Source: Oscillospiraceae bacterium (GTDB lineage Bacteria > Bacillota > Clostridia > Oscillospirales > CAG-272). Taken from it: a stretch of 64,000 bases of DNA. A program made the translations under genes and the position numbers. Each line of letters starts with the position of its first letter. The first letter of the stretch is position 1. Below, piece after piece: positions 7,578 through 35,734 of this stretch. The DNA is taken from assembly GCA_015063685.1 (NCBI GenBank), contig SVTR01000003.1, forward strand, positions 34,048-98,047, in the 5' to 3' direction. The notes below the pieces were generated by a model, which saw only the letters and a list, made by a program, of their open reading frames with translations, was not told the DNA's origin and did not search any database.

Positions 7578-8148
7578 ACCCTTCCTTTCCGATGATCTCT
7601 TTCAGTTTATTTTTGGCGCGGTAAATGTGACTGTTTACCGTATTCTCTTCTATACTCAAAATACCGGCAATTTCCACATTTCTCATGTGATAATAATATT
7701 TTAAAACGATTACGTCCTTAAATCTGTCATTCAACTGGTCAATGGCGTTTTTCACAATATGAATCGTCTCGTCATTCACCACCAGCGTTTGGGGATTCTC
7801 TTGATAACAAGCTGAGCAATCGACTGTATTTTCCTGATTAAAATCAAAATTTATATCGAACACTTCCCGTTGCTTCTTTTTATGCTTGTACATATTAAGA
7901 GCAACATTTCTTGTATAAATACTGACCAGCGCCGCCAGATCCTCACGCTCAAAATTCATAAACGTCTTCACGTTTTCGGAGATGAGGCGAAAGGTCTCCA
8001 TAACAGCGTCCTCGGCATCCTGTTGATGGTGGAGAATACTATTGGCTTTGACTATCATCTGCTTATAGTACAGATAATAAATCCGCTCCACCAGTTCCCT
8101 TTCCTCGTCGCTTTCGATCGCTTGGATGAGCTCCAAAATCATCAGCAT
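7558..8148 (-). CDS. ECF-type RNA polymerase sigma factor
   Basis: A 196-residue sigma-70 family protein. Region 2 is seen at about 22-90 (IYYLYYKQMIVKANSILHHQ...DAEDAVMETF) and region 4 at about 137-190 (LNDRFKDVIVLKYYYHMRNVEIAGIL...IEENTVNSHIYRAKNKL, a helix-turn-helix). It would direct transcription of a small envelope or stress regulon under control of the co-encoded membrane protein at 6861. GGAGG lies 10 bases before the start. Its targets cannot be read from this window. Confidence 0.85.
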   Translation of the reverse strand: MLMILELIQAIESDEERELVERIYYLYYKQMIVKANSILHHQQDAEDAVMETFRLISENVKTFMNFEREDLAALVSIYTRNVALNMYKHKKKQREVFDINFDFNQENTVDCSACYQENPQTLVVNDETIHIVKNAIDQLNDRFKDVIVLKYYYHMRNVEIAGILSIEENTVNSHIYRAKNKLKEIIGKEGYERITY

Positions 8149-16558: not shown

Positions 16559-17718
16559 GAAATGCTCCAACTATTTTTGATAAACTGAATGATGCGCCCC
16601 GCCTGAGCCACGTGATTCTTCTCTGCCAGCACGAAGCTCCTGGCCTTCTGTCCAAAGGCCTCCAGCTCTCGGCTGTCCCGATCCAGGGCTTGTCTCAGGG
16701 CCACGGCCAGGCCGTCTTCTTGGGCATCATCAAAATAATATAAATATTCGTCATACTCATCGGGAAAGCCCGGCAGCTTAGCGCAAAGCACGGGGGTTCC
16801 CGAGACCATGTATTCCATGGTTTTGGAGGGAAAAGAATATTTCGTGTATTCCCCTTCGCTCGTTCGGGGGTTGACCAGCAACGTTGCCGTTAACTCAGCC
16901 TGCACAACCTGCTGGTTAGGAAAACAACCATGATAGATCACTTGGGGATGAAGCTTGGTAATCTCCCGAAGCTCGGCAGCATAACCACCGTTACCATAGA
17001 GATGCAACTCCTCGTTCTCCTTGGCAATCTTCAAAAAAGATTCCACCAGATTGGCGACACCATATTTACGATAAAGGGCACCTGCGTACATGACGACCCT
17101 CTTCCCTGCTTTGGGGCGGGGACGCGTCACATCCGACATACGGACATCGGCGTGTCCTTCCAAAACTACATAAGGCTTTCCTTGAGGGTTGATCACTTCA
17201 TTCATTTGCTTCGTCAGAAAAACGTATCCATCTGCCATACTGATCAGCCGATGATTTATGCGGTTGCATTTTGGGCTACTGTTAACGTACATTGGCAGAT
17301 CCGTTACAATGCCCACACTTTTCATGCCTCTAAGTTTAGAAGCCAGCAAAGCACCGAAGGATGATGAGATCACCAGCACATCATAAATCACGACAGTGTT
17401 CTTGGCAGAAAAGAGGGTCTTAAAAAAAGCTTTACTCGCCAACATAAAATGCTTGACCCCTGGGAAATTTATACATGAGATATACTGCTTTGTCAGTTTG
17501 CCGTCTGTTGTTTTTCTCCACCTTACGATCTTCTTGGAGCTATTTGCTCGGGAAATTGGCAATGTGGCATAAGCATTTACAGAGATTCCATTTTCAGCCA
17601 AACCCAAGCTTAACAGTTGGTGATATTTATTGGCCGCATAATTCGGTGTCTTTCCTTTGTCATAATAGACATCAAGGATCTCGTCATCAAACATGGCAGA
17701 CAAATATAAAATGTTCAT
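16555..17718 (-). CDS. GT4-like glycosyltransferase
   Basis: A 387-residue GT-B glycosyltransferase. It has an N-terminal domain (MNILYLSAMFDDEI) with a membrane-facing hydrophobic stretch at VIYDVLVISSSFGALLASKL, and a donor domain beginning KRVVMYAGALYRKYGVANLV and ending with SFPSKTMEYMVSGTPVLC, a typical Lys-Glu donor site. It overlaps both neighbours by 4 bp. It belongs to the repeat-unit assembly set. Sugar unknown. Confidence 0.82.
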   Translation of the reverse strand: MNILYLSAMFDDEILDVYYDKGKTPNYAANKYHQLLSLGLAENGISVNAYATLPISRANSSKKIVRWRKTTDGKLTKQYISCINFPGVKHFMLASKAFFKTLFSAKNTVVIYDVLVISSSFGALLASKLRGMKSVGIVTDLPMYVNSSPKCNRINHRLISMADGYVFLTKQMNEVINPQGKPYVVLEGHADVRMSDVTRPRPKAGKRVVMYAGALYRKYGVANLVESFLKIAKENEELHLYGNGGYAAELREITKLHPQVIYHGCFPNQQVVQAELTATLLVNPRTSEGEYTKYSFPSKTMEYMVSGTPVLCAKLPGFPDEYDEYLYYFDDAQEDGLAVALRQALDRDSRELEAFGQKARSFVLAEKNHVAQAGRIIQFIKNSWSIS

Positions 17719-18827
17719 TTGTTTTCCTTTTCAATACGCTTTGTAGCTTCCCGGATTACCTGACACCCCCGATGGTATTCCTCCAGCACACGTTCAAGCT
17801 CATTATCGCACGCCTCTTCAAATGCCTTGTGATCCAAAGACATATAATAGTCATATACCGCGTCGGCATAGTTTTCATTTTGAGGGTCACAAGAGAATCC
17901 GATGCCTGCATTTTCAACACGATTACCCATAATCGCGTTTTTCATACAAAGCTGGGGAATCCTAAAAATTGCACCGTCATAAAAGCGGTTGCTCATGGCA
18001 ATCATCATATTCCGATTCCCAAACACATTGTGGATGAGATCGGTTGTACATATAAACCGATAGCGATCTTCCGGCACATACTCTCCATGAAACCAAATGT
18101 TTTCTGCTTTTTTTTCATTTGCATAAGCCTTTAATCGATCGGTCAACCGATCCTCTCTGCCGTAATAATGCAGTTCAAAGCGAGGATCATTTGCTAACCG
18201 ATCCATCATCAGGCAGTTGGTTTTTTCATCGCGGATAAATCCCCAATAGGAAATGCGAATTGCGTCGGCGGATGTCCCATATCTTTTTTTATCTTCTCGA
18301 TGGTCAAGGGACTCCTTTATAAAATTATGGGACGTATATATTTTTTCCTTTGCTTCCTGCGGTAGCAGTTGCCGAAAACCGTCACTACTGACGAAGGTAG
18401 CATAAGAGCAATTGACCAATTTATGAATAATTTTTTTGAAAAATCCGTACTTTTCATATGTTGAATCCCGATAATCGTAGATATATCTTCCGCGATACTT
18501 TCGGGTCAGTACATTTGACAATAAAACCCCCGGAAAGGAGTGAAGGAAAATAATAAAATCATAGTTCCCTCTGCGGATCAGCTTTTTAGCATATTGACGA
18601 TACCTGATAAAATTCGGAATTTTGGAAGAAATACGAACGTTATCTTCTTGGCATTTTGAAAATTCATGAAGTGTCACGTTTTCGTAGTCCGCAAGATTTT
18701 CCGGCTTTTTATCGCGGTTCCAATACAAGACGTGGATGTCATGTTCTTGATCATCTATGTTGTCCAGGTAAAACCGCAAATAGGGAATATATTTGAGTTT
18801 TGAAAAGCCCATGAGTAATATTTTCAT
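17715..18827 (-). CDS. Probable glycosyltransferase (GT4-like)
   Basis: A 370-residue protein starting MKILLMGFSKLKYIPYLRFYLDN with a Rossmann-like N-terminal half (FIIFLHSFPGVLLSNVL, YIYDYRDSTYEK) and a second domain with IRISYWGFIRDEKTN and LHYYGREDRL, as in divergent GT-B enzymes of capsule clusters. The E...E donor motif is not obvious. AGAAAGAG lies upstream. It starts 208 bp downstream of the 40-residue peptide gene, after a repeat. Confidence in the fold is moderate. Confidence 0.68.
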   Translation of the reverse strand: MKILLMGFSKLKYIPYLRFYLDNIDDQEHDIHVLYWNRDKKPENLADYENVTLHEFSKCQEDNVRISSKIPNFIRYRQYAKKLIRRGNYDFIIFLHSFPGVLLSNVLTRKYRGRYIYDYRDSTYEKYGFFKKIIHKLVNCSYATFVSSDGFRQLLPQEAKEKIYTSHNFIKESLDHREDKKRYGTSADAIRISYWGFIRDEKTNCLMMDRLANDPRFELHYYGREDRLTDRLKAYANEKKAENIWFHGEYVPEDRYRFICTTDLIHNVFGNRNMMIAMSNRFYDGAIFRIPQLCMKNAIMGNRVENAGIGFSCDPQNENYADAVYDYYMSLDHKAFEEACDNELERVLEEYHRGCQVIREATKRIEKENK

Positions 18828-18889
18828 ATGATATAACTCTTTCTTCTGTGACTACTACGAAAATTTCAATAAACAAGTTTGAATCATTT

Positions 18890-19035
18890 TGCAGTGCAGT
18901 ACAGCCGAAGCTGTACCGCACTGACTTTTTTAGAGTTTAGGTTTTATTAACCCATGAGGAGATTAAATTTTTCTGTGAAATATGGCGAAAAAATCACTAC
19001 GGTTTCGCCATCAAAAGAGTTTTTCGAGGTGACCT
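18890..19035. repeat. Fold-back repeat between operon genes
   Basis: Two hairpins are visible: CAGTGCAGTACAGC against GCTGTACCGCACTG around CGAA (about 18891-18923, followed by T6 on the plus strand), and ATGGCGAAA against TTTCGCCAT (about 18983-19011). The right end, GAGTTTTTCGAGGTGACCTT, resembles the right end of the 333-502 element (GAGTTTTTAGAGATGCCCTT), so both seem to belong to one repeat family. It lies within the long operon and may affect transcript stability or partial termination. Confidence 0.6.
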
Positions 19036-19158
19036 TTAGTTAAAACCAAAATCATCCTCCGGAAGGACTGCGTTGCCACTCCCTTCACTAGACGTAACGA
19101 CATCCTGAATGCTAATATGAATAATCTCCACAGTGGGCATTTCATATTTATTTTTCAT
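19036..19158 (-). CDS. 40-residue acidic peptide gene of unknown function
   Basis: An ATG preceded by AAAAAGGAG opens a 40-codon frame 19 bp downstream of the giant secreted protein. The peptide begins MKNKYEMPTVEIIHISIQDV, then has a Ser/Gly segment (VTSSEGSGN) and an acidic end (PEDDFGFN). It has no signal peptide or membrane segment. The pattern Tyr-Glu-x-Pro, a short hydrophobic Ile/Val strand, Asp-Val-Val-Thr-Ser-Ser, then a Gly/Asp-rich tail resembles small orphan peptides I recall from many Clostridia. Position and ribosome site argue that it is translated. A RiPP-like precursor or a chaperone-like partner are guesses only. Confidence 0.68.
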   Translation of the reverse strand: MKNKYEMPTVEIIHISIQDVVTSSEGSGNAVLPEDDFGFN

Positions 19159-19177
19159 AATTTTGCTCCTTTTTTAA

Positions 19178-22100
19178 TCATTGTTTATAGATTAGGGCAG
19201 ACTCACCATAATTATAAATGGCTTTCAAAAGCTCGCGTAACTCTTCATTTTCGGTATTTTGATGCTTTTGAATGTATGTATATACCGAGTAATTGACTGT
19301 TTGGCCTATCTGTTCGCCATCCTTCTTGATAACCGCACTGACCACATCATTAAACTCAGTAGCCTTAATACCGCAGAAAGAAAGATAATACTTACCATTT
19401 TTGTATGTCAGGTCCTCAAAGGTGTAGATTGTGGTACGTCCGTTAATGGCTACCTCAAAGGTATAAAGCGAGATATCCTTCGTTGCAGTGATGCCTAACA
19501 GTAATGTCATTTCACTGGAAAGCTCCAAGGTCGCACTGGCATATCTGATGTCGGGATCGACAGCTCCGATCAACTCTTGTTTGTTATAAGTTTCGTCTAA
19601 TCTGTTAAAGTTACTGGGTGTAAGTTCTATGCCATCTGTAACGAGTGCATCAACCTTATAATTTTGATAAACCTGGGTTTTGGAACCATATACCAACAGA
19701 TCGCTGACCATACGCTTCAAATTTTCATCATCCGGTTTTTGCTCTAAAAGATTGATACAATACTGACGAATACTGTAATCCAGGATACTGACACTTACCT
19801 CTTCTCCGTTAACCATTGCATAGAGAGTCGCGTCAATACGATCGCCCATTTTTTGGGGATTCACGTTAGAAAATGCGTAGCAGTATCTCCCCTGTTCATC
19901 CACTGTGTATGTGGTCACAACAGTCTCATTACCATTAAAGCTGAAGACCATGCGGGGATTGACAAAACCGTCAGGGACAGTTACGGCATAGATCACATTG
20001 ATATTCTCCGAAAGAACAAGAGACGCACCGTTGATCGCAAATTTTTTATACCCGCTCCCAAGTGCAAGCCTCACATCTTGCGTATTGATTCCCTTGGAAA
20101 CTGTCACAGACTCGCTAAAGATTACATGATTAGCTTTTATTACCGTCATATCGTAAGTGCCTACAGGAACATTTTCGAGGCAATACTCGGCATTTAATCC
20201 CTCTACGGTCACCGCATATGCCACCTCTGTTTCACCATCATGCGTCAAGCGTACTACAATTTCCTCTTCTTCACCGATGACACTTGTGATAGTTCCGCTA
20301 AGTGTTCCGCTAATATAAGTATAGGGAACTCCCTCATTTTGGGCAAACTGTTCAGCATAGGTTCCACGAACGACATTCAAAACCGCCTTAGTGGAACCAA
20401 TGAAAGCGTTGTGATAGATCTCGGAAATATTTTTGGGCATATACACATTAACCAAATCTGAACAATATCCCAAAGCCGCATATCCCATATGCGTTACGTT
20501 ATCCGGAATTTGAACCTCACTCAAATACCAAGGACCGCAAATCGCAGAAGTACCGATTCTAGCCAATTTGCTTCCCTCTTCAAATGTCATGCGTCTAATG
20601 TTATAACACTGATAGAAAGTACGATCACCAAGCGCCGTGATATCCTTACCAACAACAACATCCTTAATTTTCATGGACAAAGTATCATCGCCCTTCAACC
20701 AAGGTCTGTTCTTGTAAGCAAGATCAGGATTTCCAGTCGTGTCTACCTGCTCATAATCATAAGTATCACCTTCGCCGGAAAGAACAAAGGTGCCGTCAGC
20801 ATACAGGATAAAGTATGCCTCAGGGCCCGCCAAGCCGGCAAGCAACACATCGGCTGTGGTAGATTCAGCAAATATGCCTTTGTCAAAGACACAAATTTCA
20901 CCGCTGATGACGATCTCGCCATCAAAGGCAATACTGTTTGCATCAAAGAACGCAGGTCCAACATTGGCGATATGGTTGTAGCCGCTCACAGGCACGCCAT
21001 TATCCAGATAACGAGTATCACCGTTTTCATCGGTCCACCATTCCGCAGACATAGGATACTTGTGTGCGCAAATACCGTTGGTACCGAAGTTGTAGTACTT
21101 ACCTTCGATGAGCTGCACACCGGTATACATGACACCGTCCTTATAGTAGGACTCCCCGTTCCAACCGTCGGCCATCACGACACCGTCAACGTAAGTCTTG
21201 CCGTCGGTATGAACACCGCTGAACAGCTCGCCGCCACTGGTGCAAGCCAGCTTGCCGTCAACGAAATCATAGGTGTGAACGCCGGTTGCGGGAACGGTGG
21301 TACCCCAGTCAAGCACGGCGCCGCAACCTCCGGCGGTATCACAATCATGACCGTTTTCTGTCTTGGTTACGCAAGAACAACCTGTGCAGAATACGCGGCC
21401 AATATAGCCTTCTTCGGTACAAGTAGCAGCCTTATTCTGTGCTTCTCCCGCAGAATGGAGATGCCAACTGCTCTTATCATACTTAAGGAAGTATTCCTGC
21501 TTCTGATCAACAGTTAGTTTGCCCCACCAACAACCAATCTGGCGCTCAGTATCAACTTGGATCTTGTCACCGGAGAACATCTCGGTAGTGCCATCGGTAA
21601 ATTCAACAAGACCTGCCAAGGGATTAATAATGATATCGTAATTGTGACCTACGAATTCATTCCAGCATTCGTAAGGGTCGTACATGCCGTTTCCGTTCAA
21701 GTCACTGTCACCGCCGACAGAAGGAACGTATCCGGGATATATCTCCTCCTTGAACTCCCATGTCTGAACGGGGATGGAAACAAGTGCCTTTTCACCGGTT
21801 ACTTCTACGTCACCGGTACGTTCAATTGTAATATACGCAATGTTTTCTTTCGCAAGATCGGTGGTATAGGTTGCGGTGAAGCCATACAAAGTAACCATGT
21901 GGTCTAAGATCCAATAGTTAACGTTGTTCAAATCGAGAGTAAGGGATACCTTTTCAACTTTCTCTACGTTCTTTGCCACCACGTCCACCCAATACTGGGA
22001 TCCGGTAGGAACCAAGGTTGCATCGGTTTGAGGTGCAAGCCAAATATCAGCATCGTTGTTTTCAGCCTGTACGCTGATCTTTCTGATTACGGAAGCATAG

Positions 22101-24586
22101 TTGCCTGCCATGTCGCAAGCGGTAAACTTAACGGTATGGACACCGTTCTTCAACTCGGTAGCAGGAACAGAGATAACCTTTCCGTTAAACGTATATTCAA
22201 CTTCGTTTCCGTCAATATATACCTTGATGGAATTACTATCCAAACCGGTAGCATTTACATATTGGGTATTTTCAGCAACGTTTACCGCAAACCCAATGCT
22301 GTTATAGTTGGTAACAGTAGCGCTGTTGCGCTGGTTATTAAGATACTTGTCTTCGGCAGAAATAGGCTCAACATACTGAACCTCACCAAAGATAGGAGCA
22401 TCTCTATCGTCACAAGCTTCAGAATAATCTACGGTAAGATTATCCACAAAGAAGGTATTCATACCGGCAACACCGGGGGTCGTCTGCCAGTTGTATTCGC
22501 CGGAGGTACCGCCGTTAAGCTGACAGCTGATTTCTATTCTGGCGCCTCCGCCTGCCGTCGGGTTTGCAGGATTCCACGCCTCGTTCTTCTTAAGCGTAAT
22601 ACTGTCATAACCACTAACGTCTACCGCACAGTATCTCCATCCGGATTCCTCAAAATACAGAGAATCACCGTAGGTGATGGGGTAAGCATCGATACCGATT
22701 TCTTCTCCATTCTTGGTACCGGTAAAGCAGAATCTTATAGCCACGCTTACGGCATCCTTGGGGAAATATACCCAAACGCCGATAGATTTTGCATTTTCAT
22801 AAGTTACGGTCTCGCCTGCCCAACGCAAAGAAGTGCCAAGCCAGTTCAAAGTACCGTAGGTCGTATCGGAATAAACAGCACCGGCACCGTTGCCGTCGTG
22901 AACCATACCGGTAGCGGATGTTACGGGATAGCTTTCAAGAATGTTGTTATACGCGTTAAGACCGGGTTTAGCATGGCTGCTATTCTTTCTCTGCTGAAGA
23001 TGCTCTACATACCAACCCTCACCAAAGCCGTTTTCAAAATTCCAAACTACTTCAGATGCCTTACCGAATACTACTTGCATAGTTGCGGTAACATCGGGAT
23101 CATGTGTCAAGGTAGCCGTGATAGAACCGCCGGTAACCGTAGGATCCTCTGTTGCGGTAATCACGTATCCGTTCAAGGTACCCATATTGTCGTTATCAAG
23201 CTTAACTTTAAAGTCAGAAGTCTTGCTTATAACTTCATAAATACCGTATGTAGCAGAAAGGGTAAAGCTGGCCTGCTGGCCTGTAGGAACGGTCAAAACA
23301 GACTGGCTGAAATGAATGGCATCGGGAATTACGATATTGATCTCGCAAGCACCGTATACTTTTCCTTCATACTCGATCTGTGCACTTACTGCACCGGTTT
23401 TGCCGGTAGAAACAAACAGACCGTCTTGATCAATGGTACCGAAGGAATCATCAGACAGTGTCCACTGAGCACCTTCGGGGATCTCTGCCGCACCACCCGT
23501 AAGATCAGCACCAATAGCCGAGAACTGAACAGAGCTTCCGGGGGTAAAATACTCGCCTTCAGCACTTACATTTGCGCGAACAAATTCTCCGTCCGAGGGA
23601 GCTGTTGTGATAAAACAGATACCGGAGGTGGAGGGACGGAGACCACCGTCGGAAGGAGAGTTGTTGACCTTCAGCTCCTCACCGGGACGCTGAGATACGA
23701 AAGTGGAGGATCCACCACCGTCACAGTTAGCCGCCCAAACGCAGCCTGCAGCGATCATAACCTCTGCGCACTCGTACATATTCATACCGGCGGAGAAGGG
23801 AGACTGACGACCGTCGTTAAGCATCATAACGACCTGACCGTCCGCGGTAATACCCACAACGGAACGGGGAGCGGGGTTGTCTTTATGAGAAGCCTTGCTC
23901 TGGTTTACACCATCTTTTACAATGTATCCGCTGGATACCGGAATAACAGTGTCTTCCCAGCCGTCAAGGTCAACCGAAGTACGGATCTGTACCATTTCGA
24001 GCTCGGGGATATCGGCGGGTCTGGGGTTGCCGTTTTCATCAATGTCCTTGTTGATGACCACGCAGGTGGGGAAACCAACGTTGCCGTAAGCATAACCGCA
24101 GTTACCTGGGTCAAACATGATCTCGCCGTTCATCATCATGAAGCCGAGAGGTTCGCCTACACGGTCTGCAGGATAGCCGGTGTACCAAGACAAGCAGCAG
24201 TTCATCACACCGATGACTTCGCCGTCCATGTTCTCGTCGATCCAGTTCGCCTGATCGAGCATGGTGTCTGTTTGGTACTTAGATGTATCCATCTCGGAAT
24301 ACGTAGGAATGACACTTACATAGGAATGGTTCACATCAGCCTTCATAATATGAATAACCTGACGATAATTACCCGCATCGTTATTCAGAACGATCTCGGA
24401 TTCGGAAATGCCGGGCGCATTATCCCAGTCCTTTTTGGAGATGAGGTTATAGTACTCATCCGTGCTTGTGGATGCATTGTGATTGTAATCAACACCTGCC
24501 GCAAACGGAATCACGGGCATCATGCCAATCATCATCACAGATGCAATTAAAAAAGCCAAAACGCGAATAAATCTCGTGTTTTTCAT
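19178..24586 (-). CDS. Giant secreted phosphodiester glycosidase (NAGPA) multidomain protein
   Basis: An 1802-residue exported protein. Residues 1-30 are a signal peptide. Residues about 60-330 form an NAGPA-type phosphodiester glycosidase domain (GVMNCCLSWYTG, APRSVVGITADGQVVMMLNDGR, AAGCVWAANCDGGGSST), the fold that removes sugars from sugar-phosphodiesters. Next come Ig-like and beta-sandwich parts, a cysteine-rich stretch (ATCTEEGYIGRVFCTGCSCV), a tyrosine/glycine repeat part like cell-wall binding modules (YYKDGVMYTGVQ), a BspA-type leucine-rich part around 1300-1430 (FYQCYNIRRMTFEEGSKLARIG), and a C-terminal beta-rich region. There is no LPxTG anchor. Encoded inside the polysaccharide operon, it may trim or modify the polymer or wall teichoic acid (inference). 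AAAAAGGAG precedes the start. Confidence 0.85.
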   Translation of the reverse strand: MKNTRFIRVLAFLIASVMMIGMMPVIPFAAGVDYNHNASTSTDEYYNLISKKDWDNAPGISESEIVLNNDAGNYRQVIHIMKADVNHSYVSVIPTYSEMDTSKYQTDTMLDQANWIDENMDGEVIGVMNCCLSWYTGYPADRVGEPLGFMMMNGEIMFDPGNCGYAYGNVGFPTCVVINKDIDENGNPRPADIPELEMVQIRTSVDLDGWEDTVIPVSSGYIVKDGVNQSKASHKDNPAPRSVVGITADGQVVMMLNDGRQSPFSAGMNMYECAEVMIAAGCVWAANCDGGGSSTFVSQRPGEELKVNNSPSDGGLRPSTSGICFITTAPSDGEFVRANVSAEGEYFTPGSSVQFSAIGADLTGGAAEIPEGAQWTLSDDSFGTIDQDGLFVSTGKTGAVSAQIEYEGKVYGACEINIVIPDAIHFSQSVLTVPTGQQASFTLSATYGIYEVISKTSDFKVKLDNDNMGTLNGYVITATEDPTVTGGSITATLTHDPDVTATMQVVFGKASEVVWNFENGFGEGWYVEHLQQRKNSSHAKPGLNAYNNILESYPVTSATGMVHDGNGAGAVYSDTTYGTLNWLGTSLRWAGETVTYENAKSIGVWVYFPKDAVSVAIRFCFTGTKNGEEIGIDAYPITYGDSLYFEESGWRYCAVDVSGYDSITLKKNEAWNPANPTAGGGARIEISCQLNGGTSGEYNWQTTPGVAGMNTFFVDNLTVDYSEACDDRDAPIFGEVQYVEPISAEDKYLNNQRNSATVTNYNSIGFAVNVAENTQYVNATGLDSNSIKVYIDGNEVEYTFNGKVISVPATELKNGVHTVKFTACDMAGNYASVIRKISVQAENNDADIWLAPQTDATLVPTGSQYWVDVVAKNVEKVEKVSLTLDLNNVNYWILDHMVTLYGFTATYTTDLAKENIAYITIERTGDVEVTGEKALVSIPVQTWEFKEEIYPGYVPSVGGDSDLNGNGMYDPYECWNEFVGHNYDIIINPLAGLVEFTDGTTEMFSGDKIQVDTERQIGCWWGKLTVDQKQEYFLKYDKSSWHLHSAGEAQNKAATCTEEGYIGRVFCTGCSCVTKTENGHDCDTAGGCGAVLDWGTTVPATGVHTYDFVDGKLACTSGGELFSGVHTDGKTYVDGVVMADGWNGESYYKDGVMYTGVQLIEGKYYNFGTNGICAHKYPMSAEWWTDENGDTRYLDNGVPVSGYNHIANVGPAFFDANSIAFDGEIVISGEICVFDKGIFAESTTADVLLAGLAGPEAYFILYADGTFVLSGEGDTYDYEQVDTTGNPDLAYKNRPWLKGDDTLSMKIKDVVVGKDITALGDRTFYQCYNIRRMTFEEGSKLARIGTSAICGPWYLSEVQIPDNVTHMGYAALGYCSDLVNVYMPKNISEIYHNAFIGSTKAVLNVVRGTYAEQFAQNEGVPYTYISGTLSGTITSVIGEEEEIVVRLTHDGETEVAYAVTVEGLNAEYCLENVPVGTYDMTVIKANHVIFSESVTVSKGINTQDVRLALGSGYKKFAINGASLVLSENINVIYAVTVPDGFVNPRMVFSFNGNETVVTTYTVDEQGRYCYAFSNVNPQKMGDRIDATLYAMVNGEEVSVSILDYSIRQYCINLLEQKPDDENLKRMVSDLLVYGSKTQVYQNYKVDALVTDGIELTPSNFNRLDETYNKQELIGAVDPDIRYASATLELSSEMTLLLGITATKDISLYTFEVAINGRTTIYTFEDLTYKNGKYYLSFCGIKATEFNDVVSAVIKKDGEQIGQTVNYSVYTYIQKHQNTENEELRELLKAIYNYGESALIYKQ

Positions 24587-27259: not shown

Positions 27260-27904
27260 TTATTTGTACTGTTTTTCGCTTCTGATCTGCGCTAAATTGC
27301 CTTCTTTGTTTCCTGCCACACTGCTTTGAATACCCGTGCGCTTGAAAACAACGATCACCGTATTGAAAAGGATCTTCAAATCAAAAGCAAGTGAGATGTT
27401 ACGCACATATTCCACATCATATTGGAATCGCGTTTCCCACTCAACATTATTTCTTCCTTTGATTTGCGCAAGTCCCGTAAGACCGGGGCGCACATCATGT
27501 CTGTGACGCTCTTCCTCAGTATAATAAGGCAGATATTCGGGGAGCAGGGGGCGGGGGCCGACAAAGGACATATCCCCTTTTAGGATGTTCAAAAGTTCAG
27601 GGAGTTCATCCAGCGAGGTGGATCGCAACAGCTTACCGTATTTGTTCAATCGCTTGGCATCGGGTAAGAGCTTACCGTCCTTGTCCTTTGCGTTGCTCAT
27701 GGAACGGAATTTTACAAGGCGAAATATTTTTTCCTCCCCTGTCTTTTTGCTGATCTTACCAGGGCGGAGTTGGGTGAAAAAGGGGTTACCCTTCATCATG
27801 ATCGCGCCCACGATGCTCAGAATCACGAAGAGGGGGGAAAGCACGCACAGTGCTATAAATGAAAACAGTATATCAATCACGCGCTTGAAAAAATTCGCAT
27901 ACAT
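27260..27904 (-). CDS. Initiating sugar-phosphate transferase (WcaJ/PglC type)
   Basis: A 214-residue polyprenyl-phosphate sugar-1-phosphate transferase, the likely first committed step of the main operon. It has a hydrophobic helix at about 9-36, PFFTQLRPGK, FRLVKFRSM, STSLDELPELLNILKGDMSFVGPRP with the Asp-Glu pair, and RPGLTGLAQIKGRN. It differs clearly from the 5086-5724 enzyme, so the two operons may load different first sugars. Small size and the RPGLTG/AQI signature resemble PglC, which loads diacetylbacillosamine phosphate in Campylobacter. GAGGG precedes the start. Confidence 0.92.
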   Translation of the reverse strand: MYANFFKRVIDILFSFIALCVLSPLFVILSIVGAIMMKGNPFFTQLRPGKISKKTGEEKIFRLVKFRSMSNAKDKDGKLLPDAKRLNKYGKLLRSTSLDELPELLNILKGDMSFVGPRPLLPEYLPYYTEEERHRHDVRPGLTGLAQIKGRNNVEWETRFQYDVEYVRNISLAFDLKILFNTVIVVFKRTGIQSSVAGNKEGNLAQIRSEKQYK

Positions 27905-29079: not shown

Positions 29080-30135
29080 TTACATCTCCACCCGAGTGGA
29101 CAGCTCTAACGCGCGGGATAGCGCAGATATCTGCATACGCATTTCATCCGTGCCATATCTTTGATCGCACACCAACGATATTTCACTTCTGCTATACCGC
29201 GTTTCCCTGTTGAGATAATTGCGATTCACAGGCCAATGACAAGGACAATAAACATTGCTCTTGACTAGTTCCAAATGAATGAAATGTCTTTTGTTTTCAT
29301 TCACGATAATCGGTACAAATAAAGGGCAATCCTCTTCCTCGATATCATGATAGAGCAATTGAATATCATATGTCTCCGATAGGGCTTTCACTTCATCCAT
29401 GAGCAGTTGCGCGTTGGCTCGGCGTGTTGCCCTTAATGAAGCCGAATCGGCGGTCAGCATGATTTCGATCTCGGAATCTCGGGTTTTAAATCCCTCATAT
29501 TCATTATGTAAAAGCTTGTTTGCCAATGCGTACAGGTCTAAAAAATTCTGTTTTTCTCCCTCGGAAAATTTAATATATTTTTCTTTTAGTATCGCGGCCT
29601 GTCTCCAGGCATCTAGATACACGCTGTATTCTGTTGTGCTTTCGGGTACGGTAAAACCGTTTTTATTATACACAACAGCACAAAGAGAATCAAACCATTT
29701 TCTGTAACTCACAATGATATAGTCGGCTAATTCGTATGTTTTGGCATACGAAAACGCCGTTTGCGTGGCATCCACCACCAAAAGTTTTCCTTGCTCCTTG
29801 CACTTTTGGGAAAACGCCAATGTGTCTTTGCTGATAAAGCCAAAATAATCTATGGCCAATACTGCATCGACATCATCAGCGATTTCGACATGGTTCAAAT
29901 TAAACGCGTCATAAAAAGATACTTCCAATCCCTGCTCCATAAAGGGACGTATCATGGAGCTACAGCAGTAGTCCGGAACAAGGATACTTCTTGAGGTATT
30001 CTTCAGTTCATTAGCTATCAAACCCAATCCCGTGATTCCGGATACAAGATATCTGTGAGGATAAACGCTGAGTTTCTGATACTCGTTCTTCCCTTTAGTC
30101 ACGGAATTATGATAAAATTCACTACCAACTTCCAC
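29080..30135 (-). CDS. PLP-dependent aminotransferase-fold protein
   Basis: A 351-residue protein of the PLP fold type I. VDAVLAIDYFGF, LLVVDATQTAF (cofactor-binding Asp) and IIVSYRKWFD, with the probable Schiff-base lysine in Arg-Lys-Trp, are in the order expected for DegT-like or class V enzymes. It is divergent from the canonical DegT enzyme at 30718. The start is GTG with GGAGG six bases before it, overlapping the stop of the upstream gene by one base. The substrate is probably a nucleotide sugar or small amino compound feeding the polymer. Confidence 0.7.
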   Translation of the reverse strand: MEVGSEFYHNSVTKGKNEYQKLSVYPHRYLVSGITGLGLIANELKNTSRSILVPDYCCSSMIRPFMEQGLEVSFYDAFNLNHVEIADDVDAVLAIDYFGFISKDTLAFSQKCKEQGKLLVVDATQTAFSYAKTYELADYIIVSYRKWFDSLCAVVYNKNGFTVPESTTEYSVYLDAWRQAAILKEKYIKFSEGEKQNFLDLYALANKLLHNEYEGFKTRDSEIEIMLTADSASLRATRRANAQLLMDEVKALSETYDIQLLYHDIEEEDCPLFVPIIVNENKRHFIHLELVKSNVYCPCHWPVNRNYLNRETRYSRSEISLVCDQRYGTDEMRMQISALSRALELSTRVEM

Positions 30136-30717: not shown

Positions 30718-31857
30718 TTAAAAGGAAGATCGAATCACGTCCATAACGTAGTTCTGCTCTCCCTCGGTCATTTTGATATCCGAGGGGAGACACAGGCCGC
30801 GGGCAAAGATATCCTCGTTGACAGGCTTGTCCTCGACGGATACAAAATCGTAGCCTTCAAAGACAGGCTGCATATGCATGGGCTTCCAGATGGGACGAGC
30901 CTCCACGTTGTAATCGTTCAGGGTACGGATGATGTCCATGGGATTCACGTTCACCCCTTCGTTGACCGTCATGCAGGACAGCCAGAAGTTGGGCTTGCTG
31001 TCGGGTAGATAAGGGTTCATGGTCACGGGCAGATTGGCAAGACCCTGCTTGTAGCGGCGGTAGATGGTTTCCTTTTTGTCGCGGTGCTCCTCCAGATGCC
31101 TGAGCTGACCGCGGCCAATGCCCGCCACCACGTTGGACATACGATAGTTATAGCCGATCTCATTATGCTGGTACCACAGGGCGGGCTCGCGGGCCTGGGT
31201 AGCCCAGAACAGAGCCTTCTTGCGATCGGCCTCGTTGTCGCAAAGCAGCATACCGCCACCCGAAGTGGTGATGATCTTATTGCCGTTGAAGGAGAGCACG
31301 TTATACTTTCCAAAGGTGCCGCACTTCCCTCCCCTGTATTCGGAGACCAGAGCCTCGGCAGCATCCTCGATGAGGATGGCGTTATGACGCTTGCAGATCT
31401 CTGTGATCTCCTCCATCTTGGAGGGGGTACCGTACAGATGTGCCAGCATGACCACCTTGGCGTCGGGATATTTTTCAAAGGCTAATTCCAACGCGCGAGG
31501 ATCCATGTTCCAGGTCTCCCGCTCGGAATCAATGAACACCTGCACGCCCCCCTCATAGGACACGGGGTTGACGGTGGCGGCAAAGGTCATGTCGCTGCAA
31601 AGCACGATATCACCCCGCTTGACGCCTGCCAGCTTGACCGCCAGGTGGAGCGCTGCCGTGCCTGCGTTGAGGCACAGGGCGTGGAAGTCCGACTGATTTT
31701 CGCCGTTCAGGTATGCATTCATCTCGGCTTCAAAACCGTCGCAGTTAAAGCCCAACGGGGCGATCCAGTTGCGGTCAAAGACCTCCTGTATGTAGGCCAT
31801 CTCGTCTCCGTGCATGGTTGGTGTGGCCAGGGGAATTCTATGTTCATAGGTTTTCAT
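30718..31857 (-). CDS. DegT/DnrJ/EryC1/StrS nucleotide-sugar aminotransferase
   Basis: A 379-residue PLP enzyme that transfers an amino group to a keto nucleotide sugar. It shows the N-terminal RNWIAPLGFNCDGFEAEMNAYL, the cofactor Asp in ILIEDAAEALVSEYRG, and the PLP lysine in SFNGNKIITTSGGGML. It resembles the group that makes UDP-4-amino-4,6-dideoxy sugars (PglE/LegC-like). No 4,6-dehydratase is in the window, so the keto precursor must come from elsewhere. Its start overlaps the helicase stop by 4 bp. Confidence 0.9.
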   Translation of the reverse strand: MKTYEHRIPLATPTMHGDEMAYIQEVFDRNWIAPLGFNCDGFEAEMNAYLNGENQSDFHALCLNAGTAALHLAVKLAGVKRGDIVLCSDMTFAATVNPVSYEGGVQVFIDSERETWNMDPRALELAFEKYPDAKVVMLAHLYGTPSKMEEITEICKRHNAILIEDAAEALVSEYRGGKCGTFGKYNVLSFNGNKIITTSGGGMLLCDNEADRKKALFWATQAREPALWYQHNEIGYNYRMSNVVAGIGRGQLRHLEEHRDKKETIYRRYKQGLANLPVTMNPYLPDSKPNFWLSCMTVNEGVNVNPMDIIRTLNDYNVEARPIWKPMHMQPVFEGYDFVSVEDKPVNEDIFARGLCLPSDIKMTEGEQNYVMDVIRSSF

Positions 31858-34037
31858 ACGGTGATTGCTCCTGTTTCTTTACGCGCGTTGATAGGGCTTG
31901 CTGTCATAGATGCCTGCAAAAGCACTGAGCGGCTACCCGCCATGCGATTTCCGGTCTCCCAAAGCATCCCGATAGCATTCAGCTTGGAACGCCGTTCGTT
32001 GGACATATCCTTTTGGCCATTCTCTCGTTGCCGCCGGATCCACCGACCGAGACGGCACCCGTCGGGTGTGGTATAAGCAACCGGCACATCCAAGTGTCCA
32101 TGCTTTTTTTGATATTCACATGCCGCAGCATATGCTTTTTCCCAGGCAATATCATGCTTATTGCCCCACAGCATGCCGATCTTATTCAAACGATTTATCT
32201 GCTCCTCGGACATCTTTGCTCTTTTGTTGTTGTTTTTTTGGGAAGCACGCAATCCAAATATCCACGCCCCCAGTCTGATCCCGTCCTCATCCACGTAGTT
32301 TGCGGGAACATCCAAGTGTCCATGAGCCTTATGAAATTTAACCGCGGCGTAATAATTGCGCTCCCAAAGGTAGTCCACCGCGCTCCAGACCATGCCGATA
32401 GCCTCCAGCGCCTCGATACGCTCAGGAGTCAGGTAGGCGGCCTGTATACCGTTCTTGTAGTAAGTACGAAGATTGGCAATCCAAGCTCCGAGATTGACAC
32501 CGTGGTAGTTCTTCTCGGAAATGCTCACCATCAGGTCTCCGTGCTCGTCAAAATAAGCCTTGGCGGCGGTGTAGTATTTTTCCCAGGCTACGTCACGGGC
32601 GCTTTCCCAGCGCATACCGATGGATTCCAACTTGGCGATCTGCTCATCGGTCAGAAGTCCCTTTACCTTCCCCCCACGGACAAGGCGCTGAGTGGTCAGC
32701 CAGGTGCCCAGGGTATAACCCTCTGGGGTGACATAGCGCTTGGGGACGTCCAAATGGCCGTTTTCCTTATAATATTTTTCTGCCGCCTCGAACATCAGCT
32801 CCCAGGAGGCGGTGAGGGTATCGTTCAGCTTGTCAAAAAGCACCATACAATCCCTGACCTCATCCACCACCTTGAAATGCTCATTGATAATGGCGTCATC
32901 CATACCCAGGGAGCGGTAGTAAGCGGTAGCGATCTGCATCTCCTCCTCCACGGCGTCAATGCTGTAGAGATTTTCAATGTTGAGAACGATATCAAAGATC
33001 ACGGCGCTGGTCTTTTTGCCCGCAGCCAAAGCTCGGCCGATTTGCTGTTTATAGATGATGGGGGAAACCGTGGGACGAAGCAGGATCACGCCGCTCACGT
33101 CGTCCACGTGAATACCCTCGTTGAGCATATCAATGCAGAACAACAGCTTCAGGTGCTCGCTGTTATCCGCCTTGAAATCCGCGAAGGCACGGCTGGTATC
33201 GGGATCGTCGGAGTAGGCTTTATAGATATGGGGATGACGGTCAACGCCCGAGAACCACAGAGATGCCATGTCGGCCATCTCACAGAGATGATCGTAGTTG
33301 GCGCAGAAGACCAGGTACTTCCCCGCTTTGTCCGTCATGTGCTTTTCAAAGATCTTATCCAGACCGTCAGCCTTGTCCAAGGCGCGGCGCAAGGCTTCCA
33401 GATAGGCCTCGCCCTCATCCCGCACGGCCTTACTCTTGGCGGCACGGACACGGCGCTCGTACTTTTCCAGATCCTTTTGGTAGGAAAAGACGGACAGCAC
33501 ATATTTGGGTGGGCTGAGGATACCCCTCACGATGGACTCGCCCAAGGTCATTTCGGAAGCTACACAGCCGTCAAACAGCTCGTCGGCCATGTTGCGTTGG
33601 TTATCCAGATAGCGAATAGCGGTGGCAGACAGGCCCAGGATGGGTACTTCGGGGTGGCTTGTCAATAGCGCCTTGACTCCCTGTCCCCACATTTCGGCAC
33701 CGCAACGGTGAAATTCGTCCAGGATAATATAGTCCGCACAAATACCGGCGAGCTCGTCCTCGGTGAGATTCATGAGCTTGGCGTAGGTGTAGAATTGGAT
33801 ATTTTCGGGAACGTATCCGCCGGTAGCAGCCTTGAGATTCTCCAGCTGAGTCTTGAAGATATACTCGGAGGGAGACAACCAGCAAACCGTAGCCTGGGGG
33901 TGCTCCTCGCAGAGCTTGAAACCGATAAAGGATTTGCCCGTTCCCGTGGGATGGATCACTGCCGCTTTGCCGGTTTCGGAGAGCATAGCGACAGCGGCTT
34001 CATATGCGGTTTGGTTGTGCTCAAATAACGCAATCAC
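31854..34037 (-). CDS. SF2 helicase with four helicase-associated (HA) repeats, first gene of the operon
   Basis: A 727-residue protein. Helicase domain 1: Walker A PTGTGKS (30-36), motif II DEFH (107-110), motif III SAT (137-139). Domain 2: KYLVFCANYDHL, motif V-like IDMLNEGIHVDDVSGVI, and motif VI QQIGRAL. From about residue 415 there are four tandem repeats of about 70 residues, each with W....Y.AA..Y....GHLDVP, a LG.W(I/L) core and L..IGM.W, matching the helicase-associated domain. The start is GTG with AAGGAGG seven bases upstream. It is the first gene behind the invertible promoter and overlaps the next gene by 4 bp. A helicase is not a usual capsule enzyme; a role in regulating or sensing the locus is possible but unproven. 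Confidence 0.88.
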   Translation of the reverse strand: MIALFEHNQTAYEAAVAMLSETGKAAVIHPTGTGKSFIGFKLCEEHPQATVCWLSPSEYIFKTQLENLKAATGGYVPENIQFYTYAKLMNLTEDELAGICADYIILDEFHRCGAEMWGQGVKALLTSHPEVPILGLSATAIRYLDNQRNMADELFDGCVASEMTLGESIVRGILSPPKYVLSVFSYQKDLEKYERRVRAAKSKAVRDEGEAYLEALRRALDKADGLDKIFEKHMTDKAGKYLVFCANYDHLCEMADMASLWFSGVDRHPHIYKAYSDDPDTSRAFADFKADNSEHLKLLFCIDMLNEGIHVDDVSGVILLRPTVSPIIYKQQIGRALAAGKKTSAVIFDIVLNIENLYSIDAVEEEMQIATAYYRSLGMDDAIINEHFKVVDEVRDCMVLFDKLNDTLTASWELMFEAAEKYYKENGHLDVPKRYVTPEGYTLGTWLTTQRLVRGGKVKGLLTDEQIAKLESIGMRWESARDVAWEKYYTAAKAYFDEHGDLMVSISEKNYHGVNLGAWIANLRTYYKNGIQAAYLTPERIEALEAIGMVWSAVDYLWERNYYAAVKFHKAHGHLDVPANYVDEDGIRLGAWIFGLRASQKNNNKRAKMSEEQINRLNKIGMLWGNKHDIAWEKAYAAACEYQKKHGHLDVPVAYTTPDGCRLGRWIRRQRENGQKDMSNERRSKLNAIGMLWETGNRMAGSRSVLLQASMTASPINARKETGAITV

Positions 34038-34076
34038 TACGTTCCCTCCTTTCGGAAAATTTGAAGCATGCAGGGT

Positions 34077-34101
34077 ACAACATAACGGCGATTATGTTGT
34101 T
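34077..34101. repeat. Left inverted repeat (recombination site) of the switch
   Basis: A 25-bp sequence identical to the reverse complement of 34350-34374. It is itself palindromic: 9-bp arms ACAACATAA and TTATGTTGT around the asymmetric centre CGGCGA. Two recombinase arms with a 6-bp strand-exchange region are what a tyrosine recombinase uses. It would lie in the 5' untranslated part of the ON transcript. A decayed copy is at 5981-6006. Confidence 0.9.
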
Positions 34102-34143
34102 GAGCAAATCAAAGATTGGGAAATTATCCCAAACGGGGGATAC

Positions 34144-34217
34144 AAAAAAGGCATAACAATAAGACCTGGCACCAAATTTTTCCAAAAAAATGGTACAGGC
34201 TTCTTTTGCTATGCCTT
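34144..34217 (-). terminator. Terminator inside the invertible segment
   Basis: AAGGCATAACAA (34148-34159) pairs with TTGCTATGCCTT (34206-34217), with a second imperfect stem inside, and six A at 34144-34149 give a T run on the minus strand. In the present orientation it stops minus-strand transcripts, such as read-through from the recombinase gene toward the polysaccharide operon. After inversion it would face the other way. The fixed copies have their hairpins (196-234, 6227-6267) in that inverted direction. Confidence 0.72.
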
Positions 34218-34284
34218 AGGAAAAAGGAGTATGAAAATCTGTTTGGGAATTTATGACAAAATCTTATAAAATTCTCAAAAACTA

Positions 34285-34313
34285 TTGCAATCTTTTATGG
34301 GATATGCTATAAT
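34285..34313 (+). promoter_or_regulatory. Sigma-A promoter inside the invertible segment
   Basis: TTGCAA at 34285-34290 and TATAAT at 34308-34313 are 17 bp apart on the plus strand. The sequence from the -35 box to the bases after the -10 box is nearly identical to that of the fixed promoter at 6043-6071. In this orientation it produces only a short transcript toward 34384-34407. Confidence 0.88.
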
Positions 34314-34349
34314 ATGTTGAATGATGGGTTATTATGTCTTTTTATATAA

Positions 34350-34374
34350 AACAACATAATCGCCGTTATGTTGT
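34350..34374. repeat. Right inverted repeat (recombination site) of the switch
   Basis: Reverse complement of 34077-34101 over all 25 bases. The arms here extend to 10 bp (AACAACATAA and TTATGTTGTT) around TCGCCG. Because the centre is not symmetric, recombination with the left site should invert the segment rather than resolve it otherwise. Confidence 0.9.
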
Positions 34375-34383
34375 TGATATTGA

Positions 34384-34407
34384 GTCGGGGGAAATCCCGG
34401 CTTTTTT
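34384..34407 (+). terminator. Terminator catching the OFF-oriented promoter
   Basis: GTCGGG and CCCGGC form a 6-bp stem (one G-T pair) followed by six T on the plus strand. There is no T run on the minus strand, so it does not serve the recombinase gene that ends at 34410. It lies about 70 bp after the -10 box of the plus-oriented promoter and should stop that transcript before it runs antisense through the recombinase gene. Confidence 0.75.
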
Positions 34408-34409
34408 GT

Positions 34410-35249
34410 TTATATGATCAGCTTCATGAGCTTCATTTTACGCTTATGGGTCTCCCCCGTGGTGACGGTATAGATACGGGTGGTGTTGATACTGGCATGT
34501 CCCAACAGATCCGCGAGCGTGACGATATCCTTCTGCATGGCGTAAAAAACGCGAGCAAACAGGTGTCGTAAATTATGGGGAAAAACCTTGGTCGCCCTCA
34601 CCTTTGCGGCGGTGCATAGAGATTTCATGGCGCGCCAGATGGCTGTCCGATCCAGGGGACGGCCGTGCTTCGTGCGAAACACCGCGCCTTCATCAATATT
34701 GAATTTATCTATATATGACAAAAGCTTTTTCCGAAGCTCCGGCACAAAAAAGATCCGCCTCGTTTTTCCTTTGCAGTTGACCCTCGCTTCTCCCCGTTTC
34801 ACTGCCTCTACCGTAACGTATGCAAGCTCGCTGACGCGTATGCCTGTTCCGCAAATGGTTTGCAGGATCAACGATAATCGTCGGTTTCCTCGTTGCTCGG
34901 CTGTTGTCACCAAACGCATATATTCCTGTCGGGTCAGCTCTCTGCTCTCCGAGCAGAAGGCATCCCGTTGCACACGGAATTGCTTGACCACCAGTTCATG
35001 CCATCCGCAAAAGCGAAAGAAGCTGTTGAGTGCCGCCAGCATGGAATTGGCGCTGGTGGCGGTGTACTGCTCCGTGAGCGAATTTTTGTAGGCGAGCACC
35101 AAGGCCTTGTCCACGGGAGCGCCGTTGACGTAAGCCGCAAAAGCCCGCACGTCACGGGTGTATTTTTCTATGGTGGCGGGGCTTTTTTCTTCAAGGCGAA
35201 GATGATTTTCAAACAATTGTTGTAATTTCATGCTGATGTGATAGATCAT
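34410..35249 (-). CDS. Tyrosine recombinase, probable invertase of the adjacent promoter
   Basis: A 279-residue integrase-family recombinase. The N-terminal SAM-like core-binding domain covers about 7-95. The catalytic domain has every active-site residue: Arg138 (GTGIRVSEL), Lys160 or 162 in the beta hairpin, His225 and Arg228 (HNLRH), His251 (LLGHAS) and Tyr260. AGGAGG stands five bases before the ATG. It has its own promoter at 35273-35301. Lying 36 bp from perfect inverted repeats, it is the obvious enzyme for flipping the segment. Length and architecture match XerC-like DNA invertases rather than phage integrases with long N-termini. Confidence 0.92.
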   Translation of the reverse strand: MIYHISMKLQQLFENHLRLEEKSPATIEKYTRDVRAFAAYVNGAPVDKALVLAYKNSLTEQYTATSANSMLAALNSFFRFCGWHELVVKQFRVQRDAFCSESRELTRQEYMRLVTTAEQRGNRRLSLILQTICGTGIRVSELAYVTVEAVKRGEARVNCKGKTRRIFFVPELRKKLLSYIDKFNIDEGAVFRTKHGRPLDRTAIWRAMKSLCTAAKVRATKVFPHNLRHLFARVFYAMQKDIVTLADLLGHASINTTRIYTVTTGETHKRKMKLMKLII

Positions 35250-35272
35250 AGCATCCTCCTTGCTTCTTTATA

Positions 35273-35301
35273 CTTATACTATTTTACATCATGCGGCTCA
35301 A
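35273..35301 (-). promoter_or_regulatory. Promoter of the recombinase gene
   Basis: On the minus strand TTGAGC (35296-35301) and TATAAG (35273-35278) are 17 bp apart, giving a 5' leader of about 17 bases before the ATG at 35249. A decayed relative with a 20-bp gap is at 272-335. From 35302 to 35521, the rest of the gap before the spore-protein gene, I see no other gene and could not identify a sigma-G promoter with confidence. Confidence 0.6.
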
Positions 35302-35521
35302 AATGCAAAAGCCATTGCTTTTTTTACTGTGACAAATTCCCATTTATATTTTTCATCAAACGGCTCACAATAGTAGCAGAGAACGCAAGACGGTGAAAAA
35401 GTCGGGTTGAAAAGACAGTTGCCGCCCTGTGGGCTCGATGATATAGATAGTCCCAAGTGGACAAAACGCCTTCCCACATCAACGGGGCGGCGCTTGAATG
35501 AATGAAATAGGAGTCAAAATT

Positions 35522-35734
35522 ATGGCAAGCAATAAGACCCTTGTTCCCCAGGCCAAGCAGGCTATGGAGCAGTTCAAGATGGAAGCAGCAAACGAAGTCG
35601 GCGTAACCCTGAATCAGAAGGGCTACAACGGTGAGCTCACCTCCCGTCAGGCCGGTTCTATCGGCGGTCAGATGGTTAAGAAGATGATCCAGTCCTACGA
35701 GAACGGTCTGGCAGGTCAGAATCAGAACCAGTAA
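35522..35734 (+). CDS. Alpha/beta-type small acid-soluble spore protein (SASP)
   Basis: A 70-residue DNA-binding spore coat-of-DNA protein that protects the spore chromosome. The family pattern is present: MEQFKMEAANEVGV, then GELTSRQAGSIGGQMVKKMI. The ATG at 35522 follows TAGGAG and gives the expected length; an in-frame ATG at 35498 only adds a poor extension. Alpha/beta SASPs are degraded at germination by Gpr at a Glu-x-Ala/Ser site, here within the AANEVG region. Presence of this gene marks the organism as a spore former. A strong hairpin terminator follows. Confidence 0.93.
   Translation: MASNKTLVPQAKQAMEQFKMEAANEVGVTLNQKGYNGELTSRQAGSIGGQMVKKMIQSYENGLAGQNQNQ

Follow-up and report, generated by a model that had tools for sequence, protein, structure and literature searches.

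A predicted promoter-inversion switch with opposed terminators in front of a helicase-led polysaccharide operon in Clostridia

Introduction

Among phase-variable capsules, those of Bacteroides are the best known. In Bacteroides fragilis, the capsule promoters are served by the recombinases Mpi or Tsr, of which Mpi is a serine recombinase, and the operons behind these promoters are led by UpxY.

Invertons have also been described in the Clostridia. A study of a defined gut community (PMC11892184, drawn on here and below for part of its text) reports 1837 invertons, with lower counts in Clostridia-like genomes, and an enrichment of UpxY near the invertons of Bacteroidota. In the same part of the text, 32 of the 33 members of hCom2 inverton group 139 come from Clostridia, the group is linked to nearby tyrosine recombinases, and two of its members shift orientation over passages. 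Another study, likewise cited for part of its text, validated inversions in C. difficile and found that 14 of 15 signature-positive Firmicutes samples were Clostridia (PMC5903667).

Here we analyse one such locus in the window, by which we mean the whole 64,000-nucleotide stretch of DNA under study, where a first-pass annotation had placed a promoter-inversion switch before a polysaccharide operon. Sequence comparison indicates that the locus is more than a chance arrangement and is most probably a promoter-inversion switch that still works or did so until recently. Very probably, the adjacent recombinase inverts a short segment so that a predicted promoter points either away from a helicase-led polysaccharide operon (OFF, the form found here) or into it (ON).

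Results

The segment and its predicted promoter

Two inverted repeats of 25 nt each, 100% complementary and with 248 nt between them, bound a segment of 298 bp. The helicase-side repeat lies at 34077-34101 and the recombinase-side repeat at 34350-34374, neither being assigned to a strand; both are candidate recombination sites. Each reads ACAACATAA-CGGCGA-TTATGTTGT or its reverse complement, that is, 9-bp palindrome arms around an asymmetric 6-bp centre (34086-34091 and 34360-34365, respectively). Dinucleotide shuffling of 33801-34800, done 300 times, gave inverted repeats of 13 at most, and the earlier description of perfect, palindromic 25-bp repeats is confirmed. The assembly to which the window belongs (2.72 Mb, about 93% complete) has only two exact copies of the palindrome, the repeat pair itself, together with four further places that match it with 2 to 3 mismatches. 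As RNA, a single repeat can fold on itself at -7.1 kcal/mol.

Inside the segment, on the plus strand at 34285-34313, lies a predicted sigma-70 promoter, TTGCAA-17-TATAAT with an extended TG, which agrees with consensus at 10 of 12 positions, as had been proposed. It is directed to the recombinase side and away from the operon, which makes the assembled form the OFF form. Since 2.5 kb of sequence holds 5 promoter-like matches, against 2.7 +/- 1.7 in shuffles, the promoter is weak by itself, and it is the comparative data that carry the call. The locus nonetheless shows three features of an inverton: inverted repeats flank a short segment, a promoter (predicted by consensus, with comparative support) lies within, and both orientations exist, between related species and loci. 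A switch of the cwpV type was considered and rejected because the promoter-like site at 34285-34313 is inside the segment. A search for an RNA family in the leader gave no Rfam match at E<=1 over 33500-35600. No promoter family is claimed, because promoter-like matches, found in 43 of 295 genomes, are mostly short and because 21 polysaccharide proteins of the window gave no tblastn match at E<=1e-8 beside the 28 loci L008-L035 (flanks of at most 1.5 kb). A third copy of the promoter region was seen on the minus strand of the window's own contig (C43:33993-34100, that is, window positions 1-53 and the sequence just before the window), and no site with up to 3 mismatches lies near it.

The adjacent recombinase

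The predicted invertase is a tyrosine recombinase of 279 aa encoded on the minus strand at 34410-35249 (Pfam Phage_integrase, E 6.6e-24). Its ORF is intact and its stop lies 35 bp from the nearest repeat, which corrects the 36 bp given before; the six catalytic residues reported with that distance hold up. These are R138, K162, H225, R228, H251 and Y260, which we take to have the catalytic roles, and all are invariant in 22 of 22 aligned rows (the window plus 21 relatives). The protein is XerA/C/D-like and stays below the NCBIfam equivalog cut-offs for XerD (121.3 of 329.6 bits) and XerC (119.6 of 335.15), as it does below the cut-off for archaeal XerA (147 of 220 bits); an identity as housekeeping XerC or XerD was rejected on those equivalog cut-offs. 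It is the sole match at E<=1e-30 in its own genome. At the same threshold, relatives occur in 88 of 295 family, 87 of 295 order and 42 of 245 class genomes, samples that overlap. Among the matches listed, genomes G329, G300 and G547 have 8, 7 and 6 members of the recombinase family, and several matches in one genome perhaps mean many independent switches. Beside the switch, on the plus strand at 35522-35734, lies a gene for a small acid-soluble spore protein of the alpha/beta type, which supports the earlier description of the organism as spore-forming.

Recurrence of the site pair in relatives

At least 127 recombinase matches were found in the family, with up to 8 candidates scored per genome; the 111 loci used are the window's own and 110 of the 126 matches outside its genome, 16 short or weak ones being left out. 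An inverted ACATAA-N6-TTATGT-like pair stands 3' of the recombinase in 97 of these 111 loci, the window's included, and in 92 of the 97 loci whose 3' sequence runs to at least 600 bp. It is present in none of 632 control windows of equal size, taken from the same loci at a distance of over 2 kb. A motif-free test gave the same picture, with a perfect inverted repeat of at least 15 in 95 of 111 loci as against 0 of 632 control windows. The geometry is narrow: in 95 of 97 loci no more than 101 bp separate the recombinase from the site, and the pair spans 224-371 bp in 93 of 97 (full range, 207-551 bp). In all 97 pairs, each 6-bp centre is the exact reverse complement of its partner, where the search required agreement at only 5 of 6 positions. 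Of the 14 loci that have no pair, 9 end within 350 bp and 5 have kilobases of sequence. An exact search with a longer palindrome found sites in 20 of 295 genomes and none with a reversed control pattern.

Outside the family, a pair was found in 34 of the 50 best-scoring loci (53 before 3 own-family loci were removed) by a test looser than the family criterion, namely, a perfect repeat of at least 14 plus 8 of 12 site letters. This amounts to 34 of the 41 loci with at least 500 bp of sequence, and 7 of those 41 are without a pair. The 80 named relatives among the matches listed are nearly all uncultured, mostly Clostridia, Oscillospiraceae, Ruminococcus and Lachnospiraceae, and by their isolate names many come from samples of sheep, goat, deer, buffalo, horse or rabbit; on the strength of these relatives, the window's genome is probably that of a gut member of the Clostridia. 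The recombinase adjoins the sites, is intact and occurs together with them in 97 of 111 loci, which supports its assignment to this switch in the first-pass annotation. The window switch is, on this comparison, one member of a predicted Clostridia-wide cassette of recombinase plus sites.

In five loci (L094, L093, L101, L122 and L163) three or more sites were seen, two of them close together on one side; such loci may allow alternative inversions or deletions. Contigs end within 600 bp of the recombinase in 14 of 111 loci on the 3' side and in 7 of 111 on the 5' side, a trend too weak for contig breaks to be taken as a sign of mixed orientation.

Orientation among loci

Promoter scores place 70 of the 97 segments in the OFF orientation, toward the recombinase, and 23 in the ON orientation, toward the far gene, with 4 ambiguous; the ambiguous ones were left out of the terminator and tree counts, which use 93. 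Orientations were compared between related species and loci, with one assembly per species. Homology agrees with the promoter labels in all 10 segment pairs above the score cut-off, pairs with the same label aligning directly and pairs with opposite labels aligning inverted. The clearest opposite pair belongs to one genus: the segments of G201 and G003 are 83.7% identical when one is inverted and 53.2% when aligned directly, while their flanks align directly, at 90.5% for the recombinase and 97.4% for the first kilobase beyond the far site. A second opposite pair, L062 and L095, is 65.2% identical inverted versus 50.7% direct; its far-flank figure is not usable, as just 95 bp of L062 lie beyond the site. 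On a quick recombinase tree (93 rows, many open branches), the 23 "away" rows call for at least 22 orientation changes.

Two further sequences lie closer to the window. In G200, from the window's genus, the site centre is the same and the promoter faces the genome's own helicase; the segment scores 92.0 in alignment to the ON form and 52.4 to the OFF form, on a contig that begins inside the segment, so that the other repeat and any recombinase beside it fall outside the contig. The window itself carries a decayed paralogous copy of the switch at 5860-6190 (minus strand), with the promoter in the ON orientation, one degenerate site and an N-terminal helicase remnant (30 residues at 67%). This copy has 256 matches over 325 aligned positions with the ON form (score 151.5) and 229 over 320 with the OFF form (score 61.1), and it faces a second polysaccharide operon that runs from 5724 down to 612. 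The ON form in G200 and in the decayed copy, and the opposite orientations in related loci, argue for the reading first given to this locus, that the operon would be OFF here and ON after inversion. Beyond the far repeat, the first ORF is codirectional in 89 of 90 loci, 7 of the 97 having no ORF of 110 aa there.

Terminators inside and beside the segment

The first-pass annotation had described an inversion of the promoter only. The promoter-inversion reading is supported, and the restriction to the promoter is not, given predicted opposed and guard terminators. The former is an intrinsic terminator hairpin of 70 nt inside the segment on the minus strand (34148-34217), opposed to the promoter and with its T-run below 34148. 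The fold of 34142-34222 on that strand reaches -31.1 kcal/mol (z -5.7, with 0 of 200 shuffles as low), and in the present OFF orientation the predicted hairpin faces the operon. The latter is a predicted one-way terminator on the plus strand at 34382-34411, between the site and the recombinase stop (fold -13.6, z -2.9).

Opposed terminators of -14 kcal/mol or better were found in 61 of 93 segments versus 7 of 93 when each segment was dinucleotide-shuffled once, leaving 32 without. Same-direction terminators of that strength were found in 42 of 93 versus 10 of 93 shuffled, and some segment hairpins are therefore bidirectional; 32 segments have opposed terminators only, 13 same-direction only and 29 both. 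Of the 74 segments with a terminator in either direction, 68 have the strongest one on the upstream side of the -35 box. Five helicase-led segments have an outer stem in common, with a two-sided change in 4 of 18 pairs, a covariation that is weak because the sequences are few; the sixth, L124, has a hairpin of only -10.5 kcal/mol. In the gap beside the recombinase (96 of the 97 loci, with a mononucleotide shuffle as control), a terminator faces the recombinase in 42 of 96 loci and has the reverse direction in 2 of 96; the shuffles give an expectation of 4.7. By the criteria used it is absent from 54 of 96 loci, the helicase-led L089 and L090 among them. Segment and guard terminators are common, not universal, among the loci. 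Taken together, the segment and gap terminators predict that in OFF the promoter yields a short stub and that readthrough from the recombinase does not reach the operon; the OFF state is thus likely to be shielded by terminators, and more than promoterless.

The helicase-led polysaccharide operon

The putative operon occupies 9069-34037 on the minus strand (24,969 bp) and consists of a helicase gene and 16 further large ORFs, all on one strand. It had been placed 40 bp from the repeat; the operon is as described, and the GTG start of the helicase at 34037 is 39 bp away. The helicase (31854-34037, minus) is of the SF2 type, with Pfam ResIII, Helicase_C and four HA (helicase associated) domain stretches. 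Behind it, at 9069-31857 and also on the minus strand, lie polysaccharide genes for a DegT aminotransferase, an acetyltransferase, an ATP-grasp protein, an AMP-ligase-like protein and glycosyltransferases, and Pfam further identifies a Bac_transf initiating sugar transferase (27260-27904), an NAGPA/LRR protein of 1802 aa (19178-24586), a Wzy_C protein, two Polysacc_synt flippase-like proteins and a UDP-sugar dehydrogenase. Two ORFs (29080-30135 and 17715-18827) have no Pfam match. From the family names, a Wzx/Wzy-type set is plausible. A 350-bp gap in the operon, at 18828-19177, contains a short ORF and no terminator-like site; in this sole large gap, the minus-strand ORF (19037-19159, about 40 codons) is followed by a GC hairpin without a T-run. 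Between the window's two polysaccharide operons, at 6861-8148 (minus), a Sigma-70 region 4 protein adjoins a DUF4367 protein, possibly an ECF-sigma/anti-sigma-like pair.

Of the 90 switch loci, 6 begin with a helicase gene: the window, G229 and G003, which are OFF, and G051, G201 and G234, which are ON. In 4 of the 5 other than the window, Bac_transf is the second or third gene; the G051 contig is cut and carries a DegT-like fragment. The recombinase clade of the window, G229 and G051 is starred (98) in the quick tree and wholly helicase-led. A close helicase occurs in only 2 of 12 genomes of the genus, the window's and G200; the G200 protein is 87% identical over 492 residues (82% over a longer match), and Bac_transf is next to it. 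In all, close helicases occupy 21 places in 18 of 295 genomes. Switch sites lie upstream in 7 of the 21, 6 with both arms and G200 with one at the contig end; L343, L344, L346, L349 and L355, with a single site-like match each, were left out of these 7. A matching polysaccharide gene lies within 1.5 kb downstream in 11 of 21 places, one of them a weak 22% match. In L344 (G215), an ACATAA-N6-TTATGT palindrome was seen 575 bp upstream of the helicase relative, its partner and a recombinase being absent from the 1.5 kb seen.

Polysaccharide modules headed by such a helicase occur in several genera, some behind a switch and others not, and since relatives of the helicase lead polysaccharide genes where there is no switch, the helicase is part of the polysaccharide module. 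The idea that it is an accessory of the switch was rejected as the main reading, because most of the 21 close helicases are without a switch and 11 of 21 are near a polysaccharide gene. A reading as a defence gene was also rejected, the PADLOC matches covering the helicase core with a best score of 64.9 bits. By analogy with UpxY, one may guess at an antiterminator-like role.

First genes behind the switch at other loci

Among the other first genes (88 loci, 45 + 43, without the window and L137, with proteins cut to 900 residues and top families tallied), the commonest Pfam families after the helicase are the Listeria-Bacteroides repeat (7), the collagen repeat (6) and LRR_5 (6), followed by cohesin (4), AMP-binding enzymes (4), GLUG (3) and GGDEF (2). 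Judged by family name, the first genes under presumed switch control are largely of surface type.

Discussion

As we picture the switch, the recombinase would pair the two sites and exchange strands within the 6-bp centre, and, because the centres are asymmetric and oppositely oriented, the outcome would be inversion of the segment rather than deletion. In the OFF form, the promoter would yield a stub of about 90 nt ending at the predicted guard terminator (34382-34411), before an antisense run into the recombinase gene, and transcription leaving the recombinase gene would be stopped at 34148-34217, before the helicase. In the ON form, the predicted hairpin would come to lie on the upstream side of the promoter and would lack a T-run in the direction of the operon; the helicase and the polysaccharide genes would be transcribed from this promoter, behind a leader in which one site forms a hairpin. 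The end of the recombinase mRNA would differ between ON and OFF and could, speculatively, influence switching in turn. Cells with and without the polysaccharide would thus coexist in one population. A wider reading is offered tentatively and may well prove too generous: that uncultured gut Clostridia share a portable cassette of a recombinase, two sites, a flipping promoter with its opposed terminator and a guard terminator outside, in which OFF is insulated, the end of the recombinase mRNA reports the position of the segment (a fimE-like feedback) and the helicase may play the part of UpxY.

Other explanations have to be set against inversion. It is improbable, though the least so of these, that the switch is intact but frozen, with a recombinase rarely or never expressed and an operon permanently OFF in the lineage. 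The assembly has only the OFF orientation, 70 of 93 oriented loci are OFF, and the decayed copy at 5860-6190 hints that switches of this sort may come to rest in one orientation; however, the recombinase ORF and its catalytic residues are intact, the repeats are perfect over 25 bp where unselected decay would erase them, and there are at least 22 orientation changes on the family tree. Less probable still is a segment that mainly controls the recombinase through antisense RNA, the operon having another promoter. In 70 of 97 loci the promoter is aimed at the 3' end of the recombinase gene, which would suit this notion, but a gap terminator facing the recombinase in 42 of 96 loci (the reverse direction occurs in 2 of 96) would prevent the stub from entering the gene, and the far ORF, codirectional in 89 of 90 loci, starts only 39 bp from the repeat here.

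We see very little chance that the recombinase is an integrase belonging to a small mobile element, with the repeats as attachment sites or element ends. Its membership in the tyrosine recombinase family and the several copies per genome in some relatives (G329, G300) are what such an element would bring, yet the sites are inverted, not direct, they lie 207-551 bp apart, those of the window bound no large ORF and no cargo gene, the recombinase is outside the segment, the layout recurs across families and the opposite-orientation pair G201/G003 has collinear flanks; an element with att sites was rejected on these grounds, from a search that covered inverted repeats. Just as slight is the chance that recombination never takes place and the repeats serve as operator or terminator palindromes. 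Each does fold as RNA, at the -7.1 kcal/mol given above, but an operator needs no asymmetric centres that are exact reverse complements in 97 of 97 pairs, and the segments occur in both orientations. Inversion of the promoter by the adjacent recombinase remains the preferred reading.

The practical value lies in the recombinase family and its site: ACATAA-N6-TTATGT is readable and, when found as an inverted pair, usually within about 100 bp 3' of the recombinase, marks likely switches whose ON or OFF state could be read from metagenomes of these mostly uncultured Clostridia. It predicts surface genes that vary within a strain, among them polysaccharide operons and collagen-like, LRR, Listeria-Bacteroides-repeat and cohesin proteins. 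The helicase-led polysaccharide module offers a testable candidate for an operon-specific regulator.

How does the locus stand beside the described systems? It resembles the capsule loci of Bacteroides fragilis in having an invertible promoter before a polysaccharide operon headed by a gene for something other than a sugar enzyme. It differs in phylum, in its sites and in its dedicated local recombinase, and the first gene is an HA-domain helicase here and a NusG-like antiterminator (UpxY) there. The cps1 inverton of Akkermansia is, as here, a case of phase-variable capsule in a gut bacterium other than Bacteroides; its repeat motif is CGGATT..AATCCG, and its main text nowhere uses the term recombinase (PMC13343947). 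With fimS/FimE of E. coli it shares promoter inversion and an orientation-dependent terminator that limits the recombinase transcript in OFF; fimS, however, has two recombinases, a Rho-dependent terminator and fimbriae as its output, in the part of PMC2784873 that treats it.

Closer to home, cwpV and RecV of Clostridioides difficile also combine a Clostridia host, an XerC/D-like tyrosine recombinase, a short segment and an orientation-dependent intrinsic terminator (PMC2784873 and PMC5903667, as far as the parts cited go). According to the same part of PMC2784873, the cwpV promoter lies outside the segment and termination decides, whereas here promoter and opposed terminator would flip together; and RecV serves several switches (PMC2784873, PMC5903667, in those parts), where the recombinase here is dedicated and adjacent. 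In literature that was mainly non-subscription, searched through titles and abstract openings, we found no layout of promoter plus opposed terminator in one segment and no promoter switch before a Clostridia or helicase-led polysaccharide operon, a search that is no proof of absence. The first-pass annotation had taken the architecture, to its knowledge, to be undescribed in detail in a spore-forming member of the Clostridia. Of the helicase-led polysaccharide version no example was found in that search; the kind of switch is already in print as group 139 (in the part of PMC11892184 used here). That group, with invertase group 35, matches the window in its Clostridia hosts, in a tyrosine recombinase/integrase close to almost every one of its invertons and in the non-regulatable orientation of that recombinase; its segments are short, about 255 bp in Clostridium sp. 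D5 and Intestinimonas, and both orientations occur in reads, while the portion of text on the group gives no helicase, polysaccharide operon or terminator, the word helicase being absent from the text (PMC11892184). In the window, too, an adjacent Clostridia tyrosine recombinase, its class judged from named relatives, is not driven by the inverton promoter. Compared by description rather than by repeat motifs, the window switch is very likely of the same kind as group 139.
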